Positions 2,082-8,294 of a stretch of 20,733 nt of DNA are shown in pieces. How positions within the stretch are numbered: position 1 is the stretch's first letter; every line of letters starts with the position of its first letter. The DNA is from a virus. The notes below the pieces were generated by a model, which saw only the letters and a list, made by a program, of their open reading frames with translations, was not told the origin of the DNA and ran no database searches. Where the stretch lies: positions 1 to 20,733 of IMG/VR virus record IMGVR_UViG_3300028175_000457, one strand, 5' to 3'. Position numbers and translations under genes: made by a program.

Positions 2082-3025
2082 TTAAATACCTCTTTTATAT
2101 TTTTATAAACTTCACTATAATCCCTATAACCTCTATTGATTATATCATCTTTTTTATCAACTACTGGATATATTGGAGCATTAGATAATTTTCTAAAATA
2201 AGAATTTTTATCAAAATAACCTGGTCTAATATCACAAGATGTGTTTACATAGATAACTACTGGCTTTCCAAAGCTACTGCACAATATACTAGAACCACCA
2301 CCCATAGATACAAATCCAGATGACCTAGCAAATATATTTAATTGACTTTCGTTATATCCTCTTCCTATTTCAGAAATCAAATCGTCCATTAAAAATACAT
2401 TATCATAATGATTAACCAATTCATAATCTGTCATAAGACCATAACCATCAACATTAGCAGTTATGTCTAAATCTAAAAGTTCGTTAGAATCAGTAGCAAA
2501 CTCTGTATTTTTTGGTCTTTTGTATACTACATTATATCCATTGTTTTTAAAATATTCAAATAAATTATATAAAGATTCTATATCAAAATGCCCTATTGGT
2601 GGATCACCATGCTCTAAATTATATCTATTAGAAATGATAATATATTTTTCCGGTAAATCTAATGTAGAATCAAAATAAATTTCTTTAAATGGTGGACACT
2701 CCCATTGTGAATAATCCAACCACCCATTTGCTGTTACTTTTTCACCATCGGTCAAGTCATTATAATCTCTTCCAAAGTTAGCAACTGCATTATGATGAAT
2801 CCAACCGTTAGGTAAATTTTGAACACCATTTGTAAAATTATCCATACTTCTAAATTTATATTTTTCTTCAACATTATCACAAAAATAATAAAATGGTTTC
2901 ATTCCAATACAAGTAACAACACCACCTAATTCTCCACGCTCATGTAACCAATAAGCATAAGGAATTGAACATGCAATTTCATATCCAAACTCAGCACATA
3001 TATCAATAGTTTTTAATTTAGACAT
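2069..3025 (-). CDS. Probable GT-B-type glycosyltransferase, uncharacterised family
   Basis: 318 aa from the ATG at 3025 (MSKLKTIDICAEFGYE). An in-frame ATG at 3064 exists, but AAGG 6 nt before 3025 and the 8-bp overlap with the preceding gene favour 3025. The second half has YIIISNRYN (about 130 on), a helix-strand pair ending NVVYKRPKNTEF, NIFARSSGFVSMGGG, then SSILCSSFGKPVVIYV. A glycine-rich turn followed by a cysteine/serine helix and a GKPVV strand is what the donor-binding half of GT-B enzymes and UDP-GlcNAc 2-epimerases looks like. I do not recognise a named family. It follows the CapF-like gene, where a CapG-type 2-epimerase would be expected in an L-FucNAc cluster. However, the 2-epimerase signatures are not evident, so a transferase is the better guess. 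Confidence 0.55.
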   Translation of the reverse strand: MSKLKTIDICAEFGYEIACSIPYAYWLHERGELGGVVTCIGMKPFYYFCDNVEEKYKFRSMDNFTNGVQNLPNGWIHHNAVANFGRDYNDLTDGEKVTANGWLDYSQWECPPFKEIYFDSTLDLPEKYIIISNRYNLEHGDPPIGHFDIESLYNLFEYFKNNGYNVVYKRPKNTEFATDSNELLDLDITANVDGYGLMTDYELVNHYDNVFLMDDLISEIGRGYNESQLNIFARSSGFVSMGGGSSILCSSFGKPVVIYVNTSCDIRPGYFDKNSYFRKLSNAPIYPVVDKKDDIINRGYRDYSEVYKNIKEVFKCIK

Positions 3026-4085
3026 TAGCAACCTTTTCATAATAAGTATCCGCGTCATCTTCATTCAAAAGCTCGCTGATCCAAAATACAGTTCTAAGTA
3101 ATCCCTTACCAATATTCTCAATATGATGAGTATAAAATACTGGCATATCTATTACTTTTATTTCATCACTCGATACCTTATACTCGTCTATCTTATCATC
3201 CCCAATTTTTCTCATTCTTATAATTGCTTCACCCCCAACAACACAAAATCTTTCAAATTTTCGTGTGTGAAAATGTTCTCCCCTTTTAAATTTAGGATTT
3301 GTATCAGAAGTAAAAACTAGCCCCTCCGACATACTAACAGAAGCTAGCTCTGTTAAGCCTCCTCGCTCATCTTCATGAAGAGTAGTAGATATTAATCTGT
3401 CCTCCGATTTCATATAAGACCTAAAAGTATTAAATAAGTTTGAATAAAATCCTTTATCTAACTTTCCTATTGAACCACTAGTAAGATAATTATTTTTATA
3501 TGAACTCAATGTTTCCAATACTTCTGAAACTTTTATCTTTATTGTAGATTTTATATAAAGATCTTTATTAATTACTGACTCAAATTCTTTGACAACATCA
3601 GTTACGAATACAAGCTCAACTTCATTATCAGTTATAATTGTTGGTTGTTCATCATTACATAACTTATAGCAAAATGTAGCTATGAAAGAATTATAATTAG
3701 GTTTACCGAATGGTCCAAATACATTTACTAACCTTAATATTTTATGATTAGGAGAATTATCCATTATCATATTTTCACATTCTCTTTTAGATTTCCCATA
3801 TGAAGATTCATTATCAGCCTGAGCAGATGAAGCGAATATTATTTTTGTTTTATCTGCAATATTACTTAACAATTTGGATGTCAAATCAATATTAGTATTA
3901 TATATTTCCGTATCATCACCTCGATTCATACCTGCTAAATGAATAACCCAATCACATTCCTTTAATCTTTTATCATTTGCAAAATCCCTATTTAATTTAA
4001 TAAGTTCAAAATCCGTAGCATACTTAAAATAAGTATATGTGTGATATCCTATGAAACCTTCTCCGCCTGTTATTCCTACTTTCAT
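3018..4085 (-). CDS. CapF/FnlB/WbjC-like bifunctional SDR reductase with C-terminal cupin
   Basis: 355 aa. The N-terminal Rossmann domain has GITGGEGFIGYH (4-15), the NAD(P) motif, then FASSAQ (84-89) and Y96-G-K-S-K100, the SDR catalytic Tyr and Lys. From about 235 a cupin follows, with EHFHTRKFERF (270-280) and YTHHIENIG (318-326). H271, H273, E278 and H320 or H321 match the zinc site of CapF. In known systems CapF acts after the CapE/FnlA dehydratase: the cupin carries out a 3-epimerisation and the SDR domain an NADPH reduction, giving UDP-2-acetamido-2,6-dideoxy-L-talose on the way to UDP-L-FucNAc. The dehydratase-like gene ends one base upstream, which supports the pathway. The third enzyme, the CapG 2-epimerase, is not in the window. 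GGAG 8 nt before the ATG supports the start. Confidence 0.82.
   Translation of the reverse strand: MKVGITGGEGFIGYHTYTYFKYATDFELIKLNRDFANDKRLKECDWVIHLAGMNRGDDTEIYNTNIDLTSKLLSNIADKTKIIFASSAQADNESSYGKSKRECENMIMDNSPNHKILRLVNVFGPFGKPNYNSFIATFCYKLCNDEQPTIITDNEVELVFVTDVVKEFESVINKDLYIKSTIKIKVSEVLETLSSYKNNYLTSGSIGKLDKGFYSNLFNTFRSYMKSEDRLISTTLHEDERGGLTELASVSMSEGLVFTSDTNPKFKRGEHFHTRKFERFCVVGGEAIIRMRKIGDDKIDEYKVSSDEIKVIDMPVFYTHHIENIGKGLLRTVFWISELLNEDDADTYYEKVANV
3032..3035 (-). promoter_or_regulatory. RBS deciding the start of the GT-B-type gene
   Basis: AAGG on the minus strand, 6 nt before the ATG at 3025. It argues against the in-frame ATG at 3064, which would add 13 residues and a 47-bp overlap with the CapF-like gene. 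Confidence 0.5.
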
Positions 4086-5027
4086 TTATATAACTCCGCT
4101 GTCTCGTAGAAATTTATGGGCGTCAGAACTATCCATTAAATAATCAAACGAATTATATGAATGCTGTTCTACATTTATATTCTTGTTGCCTATCAAAAAA
4201 AAGTTATCAAGTTCTTCTGTTCTCATCCATTCCTCGGAAGAAACCATTTCTTCATGTAATTTTTCACCTGGTCTAATTCCAACTCCTCTTAACTTTACAT
4301 CCAACTCATAACTAGCTATCAAAACATTAGCAATATCTGTAACTTTAAGTGATTTGACTTTTGGTACGGCAATCTTGCCGTGCGAATCATCATACTCATA
4401 AGCCCATTCAATTAAATCAGTAGCTTGTTCTAACGTTAATAAAAATCTAGTCATATCAAAATGAGTTATGGGCAAATAATCCACACCATCTTCCAACAAA
4501 TCTTTAAAATATGGAATAACTGATCCCGTTGATTCCAATACATTACCATATCTAACCAATACAACTTTGGTATCTTTTTGTTGCTTCGCATAACCAACAT
4601 ACAATTGTTCACTTATAGCTTTACACATACCATATATATTTATAGGTTTGCAAGCTTTATCAGTAGATACAAATATTAAAGTCTCTATAGTTTTATGTGA
4701 ACCTACACATTCAATAACATTCTGATGCCCTACTATATTTGTCTTTACACTTTCATATGGATTAGCTTCACACATAGGTACATGTTTTAGAGCAGCTGCA
4801 TTAATAACCACATTAGGATTAAATCTTAACAAAGCATTCATAACCGCGGCTTTATCTCTAATATCACCGACAACTGATTTTATATTTGGATAGTCTTTTA
4901 ATAAATGATAATGTTTATGCTCATCTCTTGAAAGTACAATTATCTCATTATCATCATAATATCTTTTAATCAAAGTTTTACCTAAAGCGCCTGTGCCGCC
5001 TATCATTAATATTTTTTTATTTTTCAT
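4086..5027 (-). CDS. UDP-GlcNAc 4,6-dehydratase / 5-epimerase (FlaA1/CapE family SDR)
   Basis: 313 aa. MIGGTGALGKT (8-18) is the NAD(P)-binding loop. NAAALKHVP (76-84), VSTDKACKPIN (120-130) and VRYGNVLESTGSVIP are signatures of the FlaA1/PseB/CapE dehydratases, which convert UDP-GlcNAc to the 4-keto-6-deoxy sugar with inversion at C5. D123 and K124 are present, and the catalytic motif is Y132-G-M-C-K136. CapE/FnlA enzymes usually have Met where this protein has Tyr, so at this site it is closer to PseB. The immediate CapF-like neighbour points to the L-FucNAc route instead. RPGEKLHEEM and EEWMRTEELDNFF near the C-terminus also match the family. It is short of the large membrane forms (CapD/WbpM) and has no membrane segment. 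ATGA overlap with the fusion gene upstream implies coupled translation. Confidence 0.85.
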   Translation of the reverse strand: MKNKKILMIGGTGALGKTLIKRYYDDNEIIVLSRDEHKHYHLLKDYPNIKSVVGDIRDKAAVMNALLRFNPNVVINAAALKHVPMCEANPYESVKTNIVGHQNVIECVGSHKTIETLIFVSTDKACKPINIYGMCKAISEQLYVGYAKQQKDTKVVLVRYGNVLESTGSVIPYFKDLLEDGVDYLPITHFDMTRFLLTLEQATDLIEWAYEYDDSHGKIAVPKVKSLKVTDIANVLIASYELDVKLRGVGIRPGEKLHEEMVSSEEWMRTEELDNFFLIGNKNINVEQHSYNSFDYLMDSSDAHKFLRDSGVI

Positions 5028-7567
5028 TTTAAAGTTATAAACTCACATCCTCTATTTACTAATTCTTGATTATTTTCTTTGATATAATCAAAGAAGTTCC
5101 ATGCCAATACCAATATATTATCTGGTGGATTCTCATCTAATACACCATTTTTACCTTGAATCGGTATTCTTACTCCAGGTAACAACTTACCATGTTTTAG
5201 TTCATTATCTTCTATAATATAATCAATGGAGTTACTATCTATTCCATAATAATTTAAAACAGTTGTAGCCTTTGCTGGTGAACCATAACCTACTATTGAC
5301 TTACCACCATCTTTAAGAGTTTTAATTTTAGAAATTGAATCTTCTTTACACTTCTCTACTTTTCGTGCAAATTCTTTATAAGTTTCTAACTTGTCTAATC
5401 CAAATTCTCTTTCTTTCTTTATAAATTCAGATACGGATGAATTAACGAGATGATCTTGAGTACCCACATAAACTCTTATTGAACCACCATGAGTATCAAC
5501 ATTTTCTACATTTAAAATTTGCAATCCAAGATTTTTAAAGAAATTATTAAGTGATAAAACACTCCAATAGTTATAATGTTCGTGATAAATATTATCAAAA
5601 GTTACATCCTTTAATGTATCATACAAATACTGAACTTCGATTACAAAATGACCATCCGGTTTCATTATCTGAAATGCATTTCTGGTAATCTGTTCGAGAT
5701 TATCTGAATGTGCAAATACATTAAATGCCGTTACTAAATCTACCTCTTGTTTAATCTGACTTATAGTAGAATCATCTTCAAAATATCCATTGATAGTTGG
5801 AACTCCATTTTGTTCTGCAAGATAGGATAAGTTCTTTGCAGGTTCAACTCCACATACACTTATACCTTTCTCTTGAAGTGGTTTTAGAAACACCCCATCA
5901 TTACTACCAATATCAACCACAAGAGAACCTTCTTCCAAACCAAATTGTTCTGTAAGTGAATCAGCGGCATCTGAAAAGTGTTTTCTAAATGTTTCTGCAG
6001 TAGATGATACATATAGATACTCATTAAACATTTTCTCTCTTGGAACTGAATGAGATAATTGACAATTATAACATTCAGGACAATAGTTCATTTGTAATGG
6101 ATATAATTCATCTTCTTGATTTTCATCATTCAATAAATTATTTGCCAATGGTGAATTTCCAAGTGATACAACACATTCCAATCTTGAATTACCACAACTC
6201 CTACATTCTGGTTTATAATGTTTAAGTAATTCAACTCTCATTCTTTCGTCCACTAACTCATATGGTATTGTATGTTTACCAAAGTTTTCATGTTCTCTCT
6301 CGCCATTCACAAGATTTAGAAACAATGAATCTTCAAGGAATACCATTGTATGTGCAACTTGTGGTTCAGTTACTACCACATCACCTGGTTCCATAAGTTG
6401 AGTAGTCATTGGAGCGTTAGGTGTTTTCAAATCTTTAAACACACTAATATATCTACCACTAATCAAGATACACTTTTGTTGTTGTATTGGATGCCAATGG
6501 TTAGCTCTTACCGTACCTTTTTTAGACTCTATCCAACCAATCCAATTAATAGGTTCAGGTAACTCGTAATTAGTAATACGACCTCGTTCATCTACAAACT
6601 CTTTACCACCAGCAAATTTATATTCCAATACATCTCTTGAAACTGAACTATCTGACCATGCATCAATCATACCTTTTATATCATCTCGAATATTATTTCT
6701 AAACTCAAATCCAGTATCAAGTAGTTTTCTATTTGATAAAGTATAACCAAGATTAGGAATCTCATCATCGGTTTCTGTTAAGTCAAGAGCAGGAACAAAC
6801 TCTTTACAAATATCAGCGACTTGTTTAACTGACATATTCTCATTTCGTAAGTGAAATGTCTCTCTTTGAATATCATCTCGTTCTGCCATAAATTTCATAC
6901 AACGAGCTACATCAAACAATGATACAAGTGATTTCCATTGAACACCACCGCCGAATAGTTTTATTGGATTACCAGTTGCTGCCATTTTAGAAAATAGATT
7001 AGGCATTATATTAATTCTCATAGAATCCCCACCATAACCATAAACAGAACCTAATCTCAATACTATATAATTAACTGCTGATTTTCCTAAATCTATTTCT
7101 GACTGAACCTTTCCTTTTGAATAAGTTAATATTGGACAAGTTTTTTCATCCTCAGGTATATCAAAAAGAGTTTCGTCCAATCCTTCGTAAACAACATGAG
7201 TTGATGGAAATATAACTTTTGTATTCTCACCAACCGACTCGATTACATTACTTGTTCCGGTAACCCCAACCTCACGAATTTCTCTATCTTGTTTATCATT
7301 GGATTCGGCCTTTACATAAGCAACATCAGTAACTCCACCGAGATGATATACTACATCCGCATCTTTTAATAAACCTTTAAAAAATTTCTTATCTAATAAA
7401 TCTGATTGGTGGTATTTAAATCCCCAAGATTTTAACTCTTTTACTCTTTCGGGTAAAAATTTACGATCTACAATATGTACTTCATGTTGTAAATTTTCTT
7501 CTATGTATAGTTTAGATAATTGTGTACCAATATAACCCAAACCACCTGTTATGACTATTTTTGACAT
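5024..7567 (-). CDS. Three-domain fusion: SDR sugar epimerase/dehydratase + cupin + C-methyltransferase
   Basis: 847 aa from the ATG at 7567; residue numbers here count from the alternative ATG at 7576. Domain 1 (about 4-310) is an extended SDR with VITGGLGYIGT, PSTHVVY (124-130), Y152-S-K-G-K156 and RLGSVYG. Domain 2 (about 325-450) is a cupin related to dTDP-sugar 3,5-epimerase or WxcM-like isomerases, with NHWHP (359-363), EPGDVV and AHT (408-410). Domain 3 (about 455-850) is a sugar C-methyltransferase of the TylC3 type. It has a zinc site (C458/C461, C499/C502), GNSPLANNLL, the SAM loop VVDIGSNDG (553-561), YHEHYNYWS, and a C-terminal part with VGYGSPAKATTVLN and PGVRIPI. Known relatives of domain 3 methylate C3 of 4-keto-deoxysugars, so the protein may epimerise and branch one NDP-sugar. 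Having all three in one chain is unusual. The reading frame is intact. Confidence 0.85.
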   Translation of the reverse strand: MSKIVITGGLGYIGTQLSKLYIEENLQHEVHIVDRKFLPERVKELKSWGFKYHQSDLLDKKFFKGLLKDADVVYHLGGVTDVAYVKAESNDKQDREIREVGVTGTSNVIESVGENTKVIFPSTHVVYEGLDETLFDIPEDEKTCPILTYSKGKVQSEIDLGKSAVNYIVLRLGSVYGYGGDSMRINIMPNLFSKMAATGNPIKLFGGGVQWKSLVSLFDVARCMKFMAERDDIQRETFHLRNENMSVKQVADICKEFVPALDLTETDDEIPNLGYTLSNRKLLDTGFEFRNNIRDDIKGMIDAWSDSSVSRDVLEYKFAGGKEFVDERGRITNYELPEPINWIGWIESKKGTVRANHWHPIQQQKCILISGRYISVFKDLKTPNAPMTTQLMEPGDVVVTEPQVAHTMVFLEDSLFLNLVNGEREHENFGKHTIPYELVDERMRVELLKHYKPECRSCGNSRLECVVSLGNSPLANNLLNDENQEDELYPLQMNYCPECYNCQLSHSVPREKMFNEYLYVSSTAETFRKHFSDAADSLTEQFGLEEGSLVVDIGSNDGVFLKPLQEKGISVCGVEPAKNLSYLAEQNGVPTINGYFEDDSTISQIKQEVDLVTAFNVFAHSDNLEQITRNAFQIMKPDGHFVIEVQYLYDTLKDVTFDNIYHEHYNYWSVLSLNNFFKNLGLQILNVENVDTHGGSIRVYVGTQDHLVNSSVSEFIKKEREFGLDKLETYKEFARKVEKCKEDSISKIKTLKDGGKSIVGYGSPAKATTVLNYYGIDSNSIDYIIEDNELKHGKLLPGVRIPIQGKNGVLDENPPDNILVLAWNFFDYIKENNQELVNRGCEFITLK

Positions 7568-7568
7568 C

Positions 7569-8294
7569 TTATTCATTCTCCCAATTTATAAAATTTGATA
7601 ACCAAGGAATCTCCCCATGTGTAGAATAACCAGGTATAGGACTAATCAATTTTCTACCCTTTCCAGTCAACCCATACACCCACATAGAATGATCATAAGC
7701 CTTACCAGTCTCTTCATGTGTTTCGGGATGAAATCCAGATGTATATTCGCGAATTATAGATGCATCTTCTTTTAAAGTTTTTACTTTAGACGCAAAAGTA
7801 AGCGTTGTACTATTTGTTATTTTCCAATGAGTTGATTTACTACAATAAACTCTTGTCTCTTCGGGACCTCCTATATTAAATTTATTCCCACCATCTTCTG
7901 CTAGAATATATTTATCTGGATGGTCATATAATGTTACATAATCACTTTCCAACTCAAACCCCTCAAGTAAAATCTTTGCTGAATTTCCCCTATGTAGATA
8001 ATCATCTTCTAAAAAATAAACAATCGTTTCATCTTCAAGTAAAAGTGCTTGCTCAAATAGTAATGTAAAACTACCCGCGTTACCACCCTTAATATTAGTT
8101 CTCTGAATTTTACTAATTGGAACATATTTTTTTACCATTTCAAATGTATCATCGGAAACATTATCAGCGATTATATCAATATCCTTCCCAAAATGTTTAA
8201 CACAATTTTTTAAACAATTTTCATTATTAACATAATCAGGTTTAACTTTATTATAACCAGCATCAGATATTCTATAAAAAACTCGTAAGCTCAT
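7569..8294 (-). CDS. Putative GT-A glycosyltransferase with an LEDD motif
   Basis: 241 aa. IIADNVSDDTFEMVKKY (41-57) parallels the nucleotide-binding strand and loop of GT2 enzymes. YFLEDDYLHRGNS (93-105) supplies the acidic motif expected for metal and sugar-phosphate binding. A His-rich region near the end (GFHPETHEETGKAYDHSMW) may form the acceptor side. The layout is that of a compact GT-A fold without membrane segments. It sits between gmd and the SDR-cupin-methyltransferase fusion, which supports a role in glycan building. The start at 8294 has GGAATAAGAA before it, a moderate ribosome binding site, and lies 3 bp from the end of gmd. I cannot name the family, donor or linkage. A sugar-phosphate-binding protein without transferase activity is possible but less likely. 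Confidence 0.6.
   Translation of the reverse strand: MSLRVFYRISDAGYNKVKPDYVNNENCLKNCVKHFGKDIDIIADNVSDDTFEMVKKYVPISKIQRTNIKGGNAGSFTLLFEQALLLEDETIVYFLEDDYLHRGNSAKILLEGFELESDYVTLYDHPDKYILAEDGGNKFNIGGPEETRVYCSKSTHWKITNSTTLTFASKVKTLKEDASIIREYTSGFHPETHEETGKAYDHSMWVYGLTGKGRKLISPIPGYSTHGEIPWLSNFINWENE
7578..7582 (-). promoter_or_regulatory. RBS deciding the start of the fusion gene
   Basis: GGGAG lies only 1 nt before the ATG at 7576 but 10 nt before the in-frame ATG at 7567. The latter gives MSKIVITGG, a normal SDR N-terminus, and is preferred. Confidence 0.5.

Follow-up and report, generated by a model that had tools for sequence, protein, structure and literature searches.

A conserved SDR-cupin-C-methyltransferase fusion in phages, SAR11 and SAR86, and its predicted role in branched-sugar synthesis

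The fusion gene and its three domains

The DNA analysed here, IMG/VR virus record IMGVR_UViG_3300028175_000457 (20,733 bases in full, hereafter the window), carries nearly all of its long open reading frames (ORFs) on the minus strand, and one of them encodes a short-chain dehydrogenase/reductase (SDR) domain, a cupin domain and a TylC3/TcaB9-type sugar C-methyltransferase domain in a single chain (Table 1). The gene is genuine and conserved, a trifunctional fusion whose parts all belong to familiar kinds of enzyme. The ORF shares 8 bases (7569-7576) with the gene upstream and 4 (5024-5027) with the one downstream, a pattern typical of genes in one operon.

Table 1. Features of the fusion gene and its neighbours in the window
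Feature	Position	Strand	Basis or detail
Three-domain fusion gene	5024..7576	minus	850 aa from Met1; alternative start at 7567 (Met4) gives 847 aa
SDR domain, residues 5-312	6641..7564	minus	Pfam Epimerase; PDB sequence and fold matches; motif check
Cupin domain, residues about 315-450	6227..6634	minus	R357-A-N-H360-x-H362, Q367, H409; AlphaFold, Foldseek, phmmer
Sugar C-methyltransferase domain, residues 457-850 (zinc-binding, SAM-binding and C-terminal parts)	5027..6208	minus	phmmer, Foldseek, Pfam
Zinc-binding Methyltransf_13 part	6026..6205	minus	C458/C461/C499/C502, cysteines conserved
Gene overlapping the fusion start	7569..8294	minus	Probable glycosyltransferase, judged by eye
GDP-mannose 4,6-dehydratase (GMD)-like gene, 319 aa	8298..9257	minus	TIGR01472, 410 bits against a cut-off of 415
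UDP-N-acetylglucosamine (UDP-GlcNAc) 4,6-dehydratase-like gene (PseB/CapE type)	4086..5027	minus	Shares 4 bases with the end of the fusion gene; Polysacc_synt_2, E 5e-79; PseB model, 269 bits against a cut-off of 408
CapF/WbjC-like SDR-cupin reductase	3018..4085	minus	NF047837, E 5e-58 (below cut-off); Polysacc_synt_C, E 4e-35

A Pfam search of the whole protein returned Epimerase at residues 7-234 (E 3e-24), Methyltransf_13 at 458-517 (9e-17), Methyltransf_23 at 534-688 and Methyltransf_14 at 695-848 (3e-46), with Methyltransf_13 and Methyltransf_14 both above their gathering scores, and detected no cupin. The full-length AlphaFold model has a predicted local distance difference test score (pLDDT) of 83.9 and a predicted template modelling score (pTM) of 0.66, a level at which the model does not establish how the domains pack together. 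When this model was compared by Foldseek, the C-terminal 400 residues matched MtmC, KijD1 and TcaB9 (TMt 0.89-0.93), and the N-terminal 310 residues matched Cj1427 (TMt about 0.82).

The methyltransferase domain also matches MtmC (E 4e-74), KijD1 and TcaB9 by phmmer, and its zinc cysteines and S-adenosylmethionine (SAM) loop are kept. The catalytic residues Y76, H181, Y222, E224 and H225 of TcaB9 align with Y520, H623, Y664, E666 and H667 of the fusion, which are invariant in 42 fusions; the TcaB9 set was taken from the mutants named in PDB titles, and the correspondence was read by hand, allowing for a two-residue offset in chain numbering.

The SDR domain is of the extended type, with a GGLGYIG NAD loop, S125/T126 and Y152xxxK156, and with Asp37, an NAD-type acid at the end of β2 that is invariant in the 42 fusions. 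An Asp at this position favours NAD(H). The acidic pair of dehydratases (the D/E pair) is absent: the fusion reads FPSTHVVYEG where dehydratases show TDEVYG or SSEMFG, and with STHVV instead of TDEV or SSEM the domain falls outside this type of 4,6-dehydratase. The nearest SDRs are Cj1427 and GalE-type enzymes, Cj1427 being the closest solved relative both by sequence (E 2.8e-15, 22% identity) and by fold; at this identity the match indicates kinship rather than function.

The cupin domain is assigned by predicted fold and by weak sequence similarity. Searched in isolation, the segment gave only sub-threshold Pfam matches to Cupin_2 and Polysacc_synt_C, and against the PDB phmmer found only weak similarity, to the cupin of CapF (E 0.006). 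Its AlphaFold model (pLDDT 88.5), on the other hand, was matched by Foldseek to the RmlC, QdtA/FdtA and CapF cupins with a probability of 1.00, and the RxxHx(H/Q) motif of the RmlC/FdtA/CapF sugar cupins is present.

Across the 42 aligned fusions, the catalytic residues of each domain vary little or not at all, and Y152, K156, H360, H362 and H409 are invariant. In all, 96 fused proteins longer than 800 residues were collected. The pairwise ratio of nonsynonymous to synonymous divergence (dN/dS) lies at 0.01-0.19 in each of the three domains, so purifying selection acts on all of them. When the window gene (5027-7576) is compared with the copy at L004:6532-9078, dS is 0.31 in the methyltransferase part and 1.6 in the SDR part, a difference which suggests recombination inside the gene.

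These results confirm the observation in the original prediction, which had been made from the letters of the window, and support its interpretation in part. Its coordinates were right, the frame lying on the minus strand, and its 847 residues correspond to a start at Met4 of the 850-residue ORF. The three domains carry the key residues it had listed (Y152/K156, H360/H362/H409, the zinc cysteines and the SAM loop) in the 850-residue numbering, the assignment to TylC3-type C-methyltransferases is borne out by the Pfam parts, the fold matches and the five TcaB9 catalytic residues, and the loss of essential residues on alignment that it had considered is not seen. The term epimerase/dehydratase holds for the first domain only in part, since this is an SDR with its catalytic residues and without the D/E pair of a dehydratase; it is better described as a C4 redox enzyme (dehydrogenase, epimerase or ketoreductase).

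Spread of the fusion among viruses and cells

The viral scan returned 19 loci, several of whose copies end at contig ends. A full-length alignment contains 14 intact viral copies, that of the window among them; the remaining ones share 57-90% identity with the window protein, and a 642-kb phage genome (LR756502) carries the fusion at 59%. The longer match spans at L009, L010 and L014 had raised the possibility of an insertion or intein, which was rejected because the extra span is a neighbouring SDR gene. At L016:7998-10571 lies a frameshifted copy, the SDR part of which is split over several frames, representing either a sequencing error or a decaying gene.

In the scan of bacterial and archaeal genomes, 334 related stretches were found, and the best 80 of these, all full or nearly full fusions, were kept. 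Most belong to Pelagibacteraceae (SAR11), at 50-54% identity, and the remainder include SAR86, one Patescibacteria and one Nanoarchaeota contig from a metagenome-assembled genome (MAG); the last two labels are those given on the contigs, and misbinning is possible. The whole fusion occurs in 21 of the 148 sampled Pelagibacterales genomes, and many more have stand-alone C-methyltransferases. In a quick, midpoint-rooted tree with long branches, the phage fusions group with the Patescibacteria, SAR86 and Nanoarchaeota-labelled contigs, opposite SAR11, and a recent pickup by phages from SAR11 is thus not supported.

The domain search that the original prediction had proposed for phages and bacteria therefore recovered the three-way fusion in viral loci, SAR11 and SAR86, and the framing of the gene as a phage oddity has to be given up. 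A literature search for C-methyltransferase together with SAR11, Pelagibacter, cupin or fusion returned no report of this architecture among the open-access papers listed, subscription papers lying outside its scope.

Gene context and sugar identity

Within the window, the gene overlapping the fusion start had no match in Pfam and PHROG searches, and its relatives stand beside or near the fusion at L006, L015 and L019. The GMD-like gene is a possible supplier of GDP-4-keto-6-deoxymannose. On the other side of the fusion, the CapF/WbjC-like product is a second, separate SDR-cupin protein; despite the CapE-like and CapF-like genes at 3018-5027, no match to a CapG-type 2-epimerase was found among the window proteins checked, and the UDP-sugar route there is possibly incomplete or different. 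The window also holds many probable glycosyltransferase genes and a head maturation protease (by PHROGs). Next to the glycan cluster, the ORF at 31-831 contains NUMOD3 motifs (E 2e-12) and is probably a homing-endonuclease-type gene.

Among the nearest phages, GMD lies within 8 kb of the fusion in the window and at L002-L005, L013 and L018, and L002 also holds GDP-fucose-synthase-like and DegT genes. The recurrence of GMD in the closest phages, together with these L002 genes, favours a GDP sugar there, and GDP-4-keto-6-deoxymannose is a plausible guess for the phage substrate. At L007, L010, L012 and L019, the next gene or the next but one after the fusion is GT2-like, and beyond it are encoded long repetitive proteins that resemble tail fibres (judged by eye); the natural reading is that the fusion product decorates virion or host-surface glycans. 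The fusion at L004:5803-11226 is surrounded by genes for a GT29 sialyltransferase-family protein (PF00777, E 4e-32), a NeuB-type synthase and a CMP-sugar cytidylyltransferase, which may together form a phage pathway for a sialic-acid-like sugar.

In cells the surroundings are simpler. Of the 80 bacterial loci, 58 have a GT17 (PF04724; 48 loci) or GT2 (10 loci) gene no more than three genes away from the fusion, and only two have an ORF with the dehydratase motif within the fetched flanks (up to 8 kb). A frequent site of the fusion in SAR11 is the interval from lon to nuoA, where a GT17 gene adjoins it, and in SAR86 it stands alone, close to rpoD and dnaG (these four genes were named by eye). 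At L042 and L045, for example, the lon/nuoA gap of SAR11 contains the fusion and an opposite-strand GT17 gene, and other SAR11 genomes have both elsewhere; the pair looks like a small mobile glycan cassette. On the Nanoarchaeota-labelled MAG contig, only a few genes separate the three-domain fusion from a GalE-like SDR and from an HddC-HddA fusion for GDP-heptose synthesis (L023:2941-5932).

Co-occurrence was compared for four families between the 21 fusion-bearing and the 127 other Pelagibacterales genomes; the p values are uncorrected for the four tests and ignore shared ancestry, and the genomes may be incomplete. CDP-glucose 4,6-dehydratase is weakly enriched with the fusion (12/21 vs 40/127, p 0.028). 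RmlB is not enriched in the fusion-bearing genomes, nor is HddA (4/21 vs 22/127, p 0.77), and GDP-manno-heptose as a fixed substrate is accordingly not supported, although L023 has HddA near the fusion; likewise, the lack of enrichment of GMD and RmlB speaks against either as a fixed partner. In the fusion-bearing genomes G114, G116 and G147, which may be incomplete, none of GMD, RmlB and CDP-glucose dehydratase was found at the thresholds used. Stand-alone SAR11 C-methyltransferases often adjoin RmlB, CDP-glucose dehydratase or GMD genes (by eye from coordinates). At L102 and L108-L110, separate SDR, cupin and C-methyltransferase genes follow one another in the order of the fusion domains, ahead of a Gfo/Idh oxidoreductase gene, and GT17 accompanies this operon at L108-L110 (confirmed by Pfam at L108).

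Predicted pathway and known systems

Based on its domains and folds, the fusion is probably a multifunctional synthase of C-methyl-branched nucleotide sugars, combining C4 redox chemistry, C3/C5 epimerisation and C3-methylation. The three domains would act in turn on one nucleoside diphosphate (NDP)-4-keto sugar: SAM would supply a methyl group that the methyltransferase attaches beside the 4-keto group, most likely at C3; the cupin would determine the configuration at C3 and/or C5; and the SDR would see to oxidation or reduction at C4. The GMD-like enzyme encoded in the same locus is a possible source of the 4-keto sugar in phages, as GDP-4-keto-6-deoxymannose. SAR11 and SAR86 usually have the gene on its own or next to a single glycosyltransferase gene, and there the Cj1427-like SDR may itself form the 4-keto group. 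The product would presumably be passed by neighbouring glycosyltransferases to a surface or virion glycan. The compact route to a C-methylated sugar put forward in the original prediction is thus plausible, given three domains with conserved catalytic residues in a glycan locus, and its 4-keto-6-deoxy NDP-sugar substrate is plausible for the GMD-bearing phages; in SAR11 no significant link to a 4,6-dehydratase was found except the weak one to the CDP-glucose enzyme.

Several observations weigh against this assignment. Its activity, substrate and product are predicted from sequence and fold, the cupin sequence by itself reaches none of the curated Pfam thresholds, and C3-epimerase, C5-epimerase, C3/C5-epimerase and 3,4-ketoisomerase cupins match it with similar scores. 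As for the sugar, several fusion-bearing phages have no GMD within the fetched 8 kb, GMD is not enriched with the fusion in SAR11 (14/21 vs 92/127, p 0.61), and the overlap of the window fusion with the UDP-GlcNAc dehydratase-like gene argues for a UDP sugar as much as for a GDP sugar.

The part played by the SDR can be read in two other ways. It may be an ordinary 4-ketoreductase, so that an external 4,6-dehydratase would make the 4-keto sugar, the cupin would epimerise it, the methyltransferase would methylate it and the SDR would finish with NAD(P)H. The NovU/NovW/NovS and TylC pathways are models for this ketoreductase-last order. By analogy with them, and with GMD-like genes in the window and nearby phage loci, dehydratase genes beside many stand-alone SAR11 C-methyltransferases and the slight enrichment of CDP-glucose 4,6-dehydratase in its favour, this order has a real chance of being correct, which we put somewhat below even. 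It fits poorly with the usual lack of dehydratase neighbours of the bacterial fusion genes, with G114, G116 and G147, and with Asp37, which favours NADH/NAD+, whereas the Campylobacter C4-reductases use NADPH (PMC10680097). Alternatively, the SDR would use bound NAD+ to oxidise an ordinary NDP-sugar at C4, the transient 4-keto sugar would be the substrate of the cupin and the methyltransferase, and the same SDR would then re-reduce it, making both an external dehydratase and an external ketoreductase unnecessary. The NAD-type Asp37, the kinship to Cj1427 and GalE-type enzymes, the 78 bacterial loci without a dehydratase-motif ORF and the solitary position of the gene in SAR86 (and, but for GT17, in the lon-nuoA gap of SAR11) would suit such a closed redox cycle, as would the first place of the SDR in the domain order, which is that of the 4-keto-forming gene in the unfused operons. 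However, GMD is close by in the phage clade of the window, a C3-quaternary product may resist re-reduction by the same SDR, and Cj1427 itself requires α-ketoglutarate and a separate C4-reductase (PMC10680097); we consider the cycle possible but doubtful. Its broader form, in which one portable gene would hold a whole branched-sugar pathway and would have reached SAR11, SAR86 and large phages, in many cases together with a single glycosyltransferase gene, is unlikely.

That the fusion arose by chance or artefact, or contains a dead domain, is highly improbable. The frameshifts in the SDR of the L016 copy point that way, but the 96 fused proteins, the invariant catalytic residues and the low dN/dS in each domain point the other way. 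The assembly or frame artefact that the original prediction had named as a danger is excluded by the recurrence of the same fusion in many independent viral and bacterial contigs and by the low dN/dS.

Most of what is known of C-methyl-branched sugars concerns antibiotics and a small number of lipopolysaccharide molecules. The conservation of a synthase of this predicted kind in SAR11, the most abundant bacteria of the ocean, and in large phages suggests that such sugars are widespread on the surfaces of marine cells or virions, as yet unrecorded and shared by bacteria and phages; as a single-gene enzyme, the fusion is directly testable.

The known systems each resemble part of the fusion. TcaB9, KijD1, MtmC and TylC3 agree with its methyltransferase unit in the three-part fold, the zinc cysteines, the SAM loop and the Tyr/His/Tyr/Glu/His catalytic set, but are stand-alone enzymes acting on dTDP sugars in antibiotic pathways, whereas in the fusion this unit is joined to an SDR and a cupin. 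CapF (WbjC), of capsular N-acetylfucosamine synthesis, has an SDR followed by a cupin in one chain and a similar N-H-W-H cupin motif, but lacks the methyltransferase, and the CapF equivalog model NF047837 did not match the fusion at E 0.01. Cj1427 shares the aromatic-P-N/S-T motif of the fusion SDR and is stand-alone, without cupin or methyltransferase; it is described as a C4-dehydrogenase that binds NADH tightly, works on GDP-D-glycero-D-manno-heptose by a ping-pong mechanism and acts upstream of a C3/C5-epimerase and an NADPH-dependent C4-reductase in the Campylobacter pathway (PMC10680097). In the proposed virenose pathway of Coxiella, TylC3-type C3-methylation of a dTDP- or GDP-4-keto-6-deoxyhexose is completed by an epimerase and a reductase (PMC3539893); it resembles the fusion in C3-methylation, but is known in silico only and uses separate genes with no fusion (PMC3539893). 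Finally, the unfused SAR11 operons at L102 and L108-L110 keep the domain order of the fusion, but their SDR is RmlB-like with the dehydratase D/E motif, and because the SDR types differ, their gene order is an analogy to the fusion rather than its direct ancestor.

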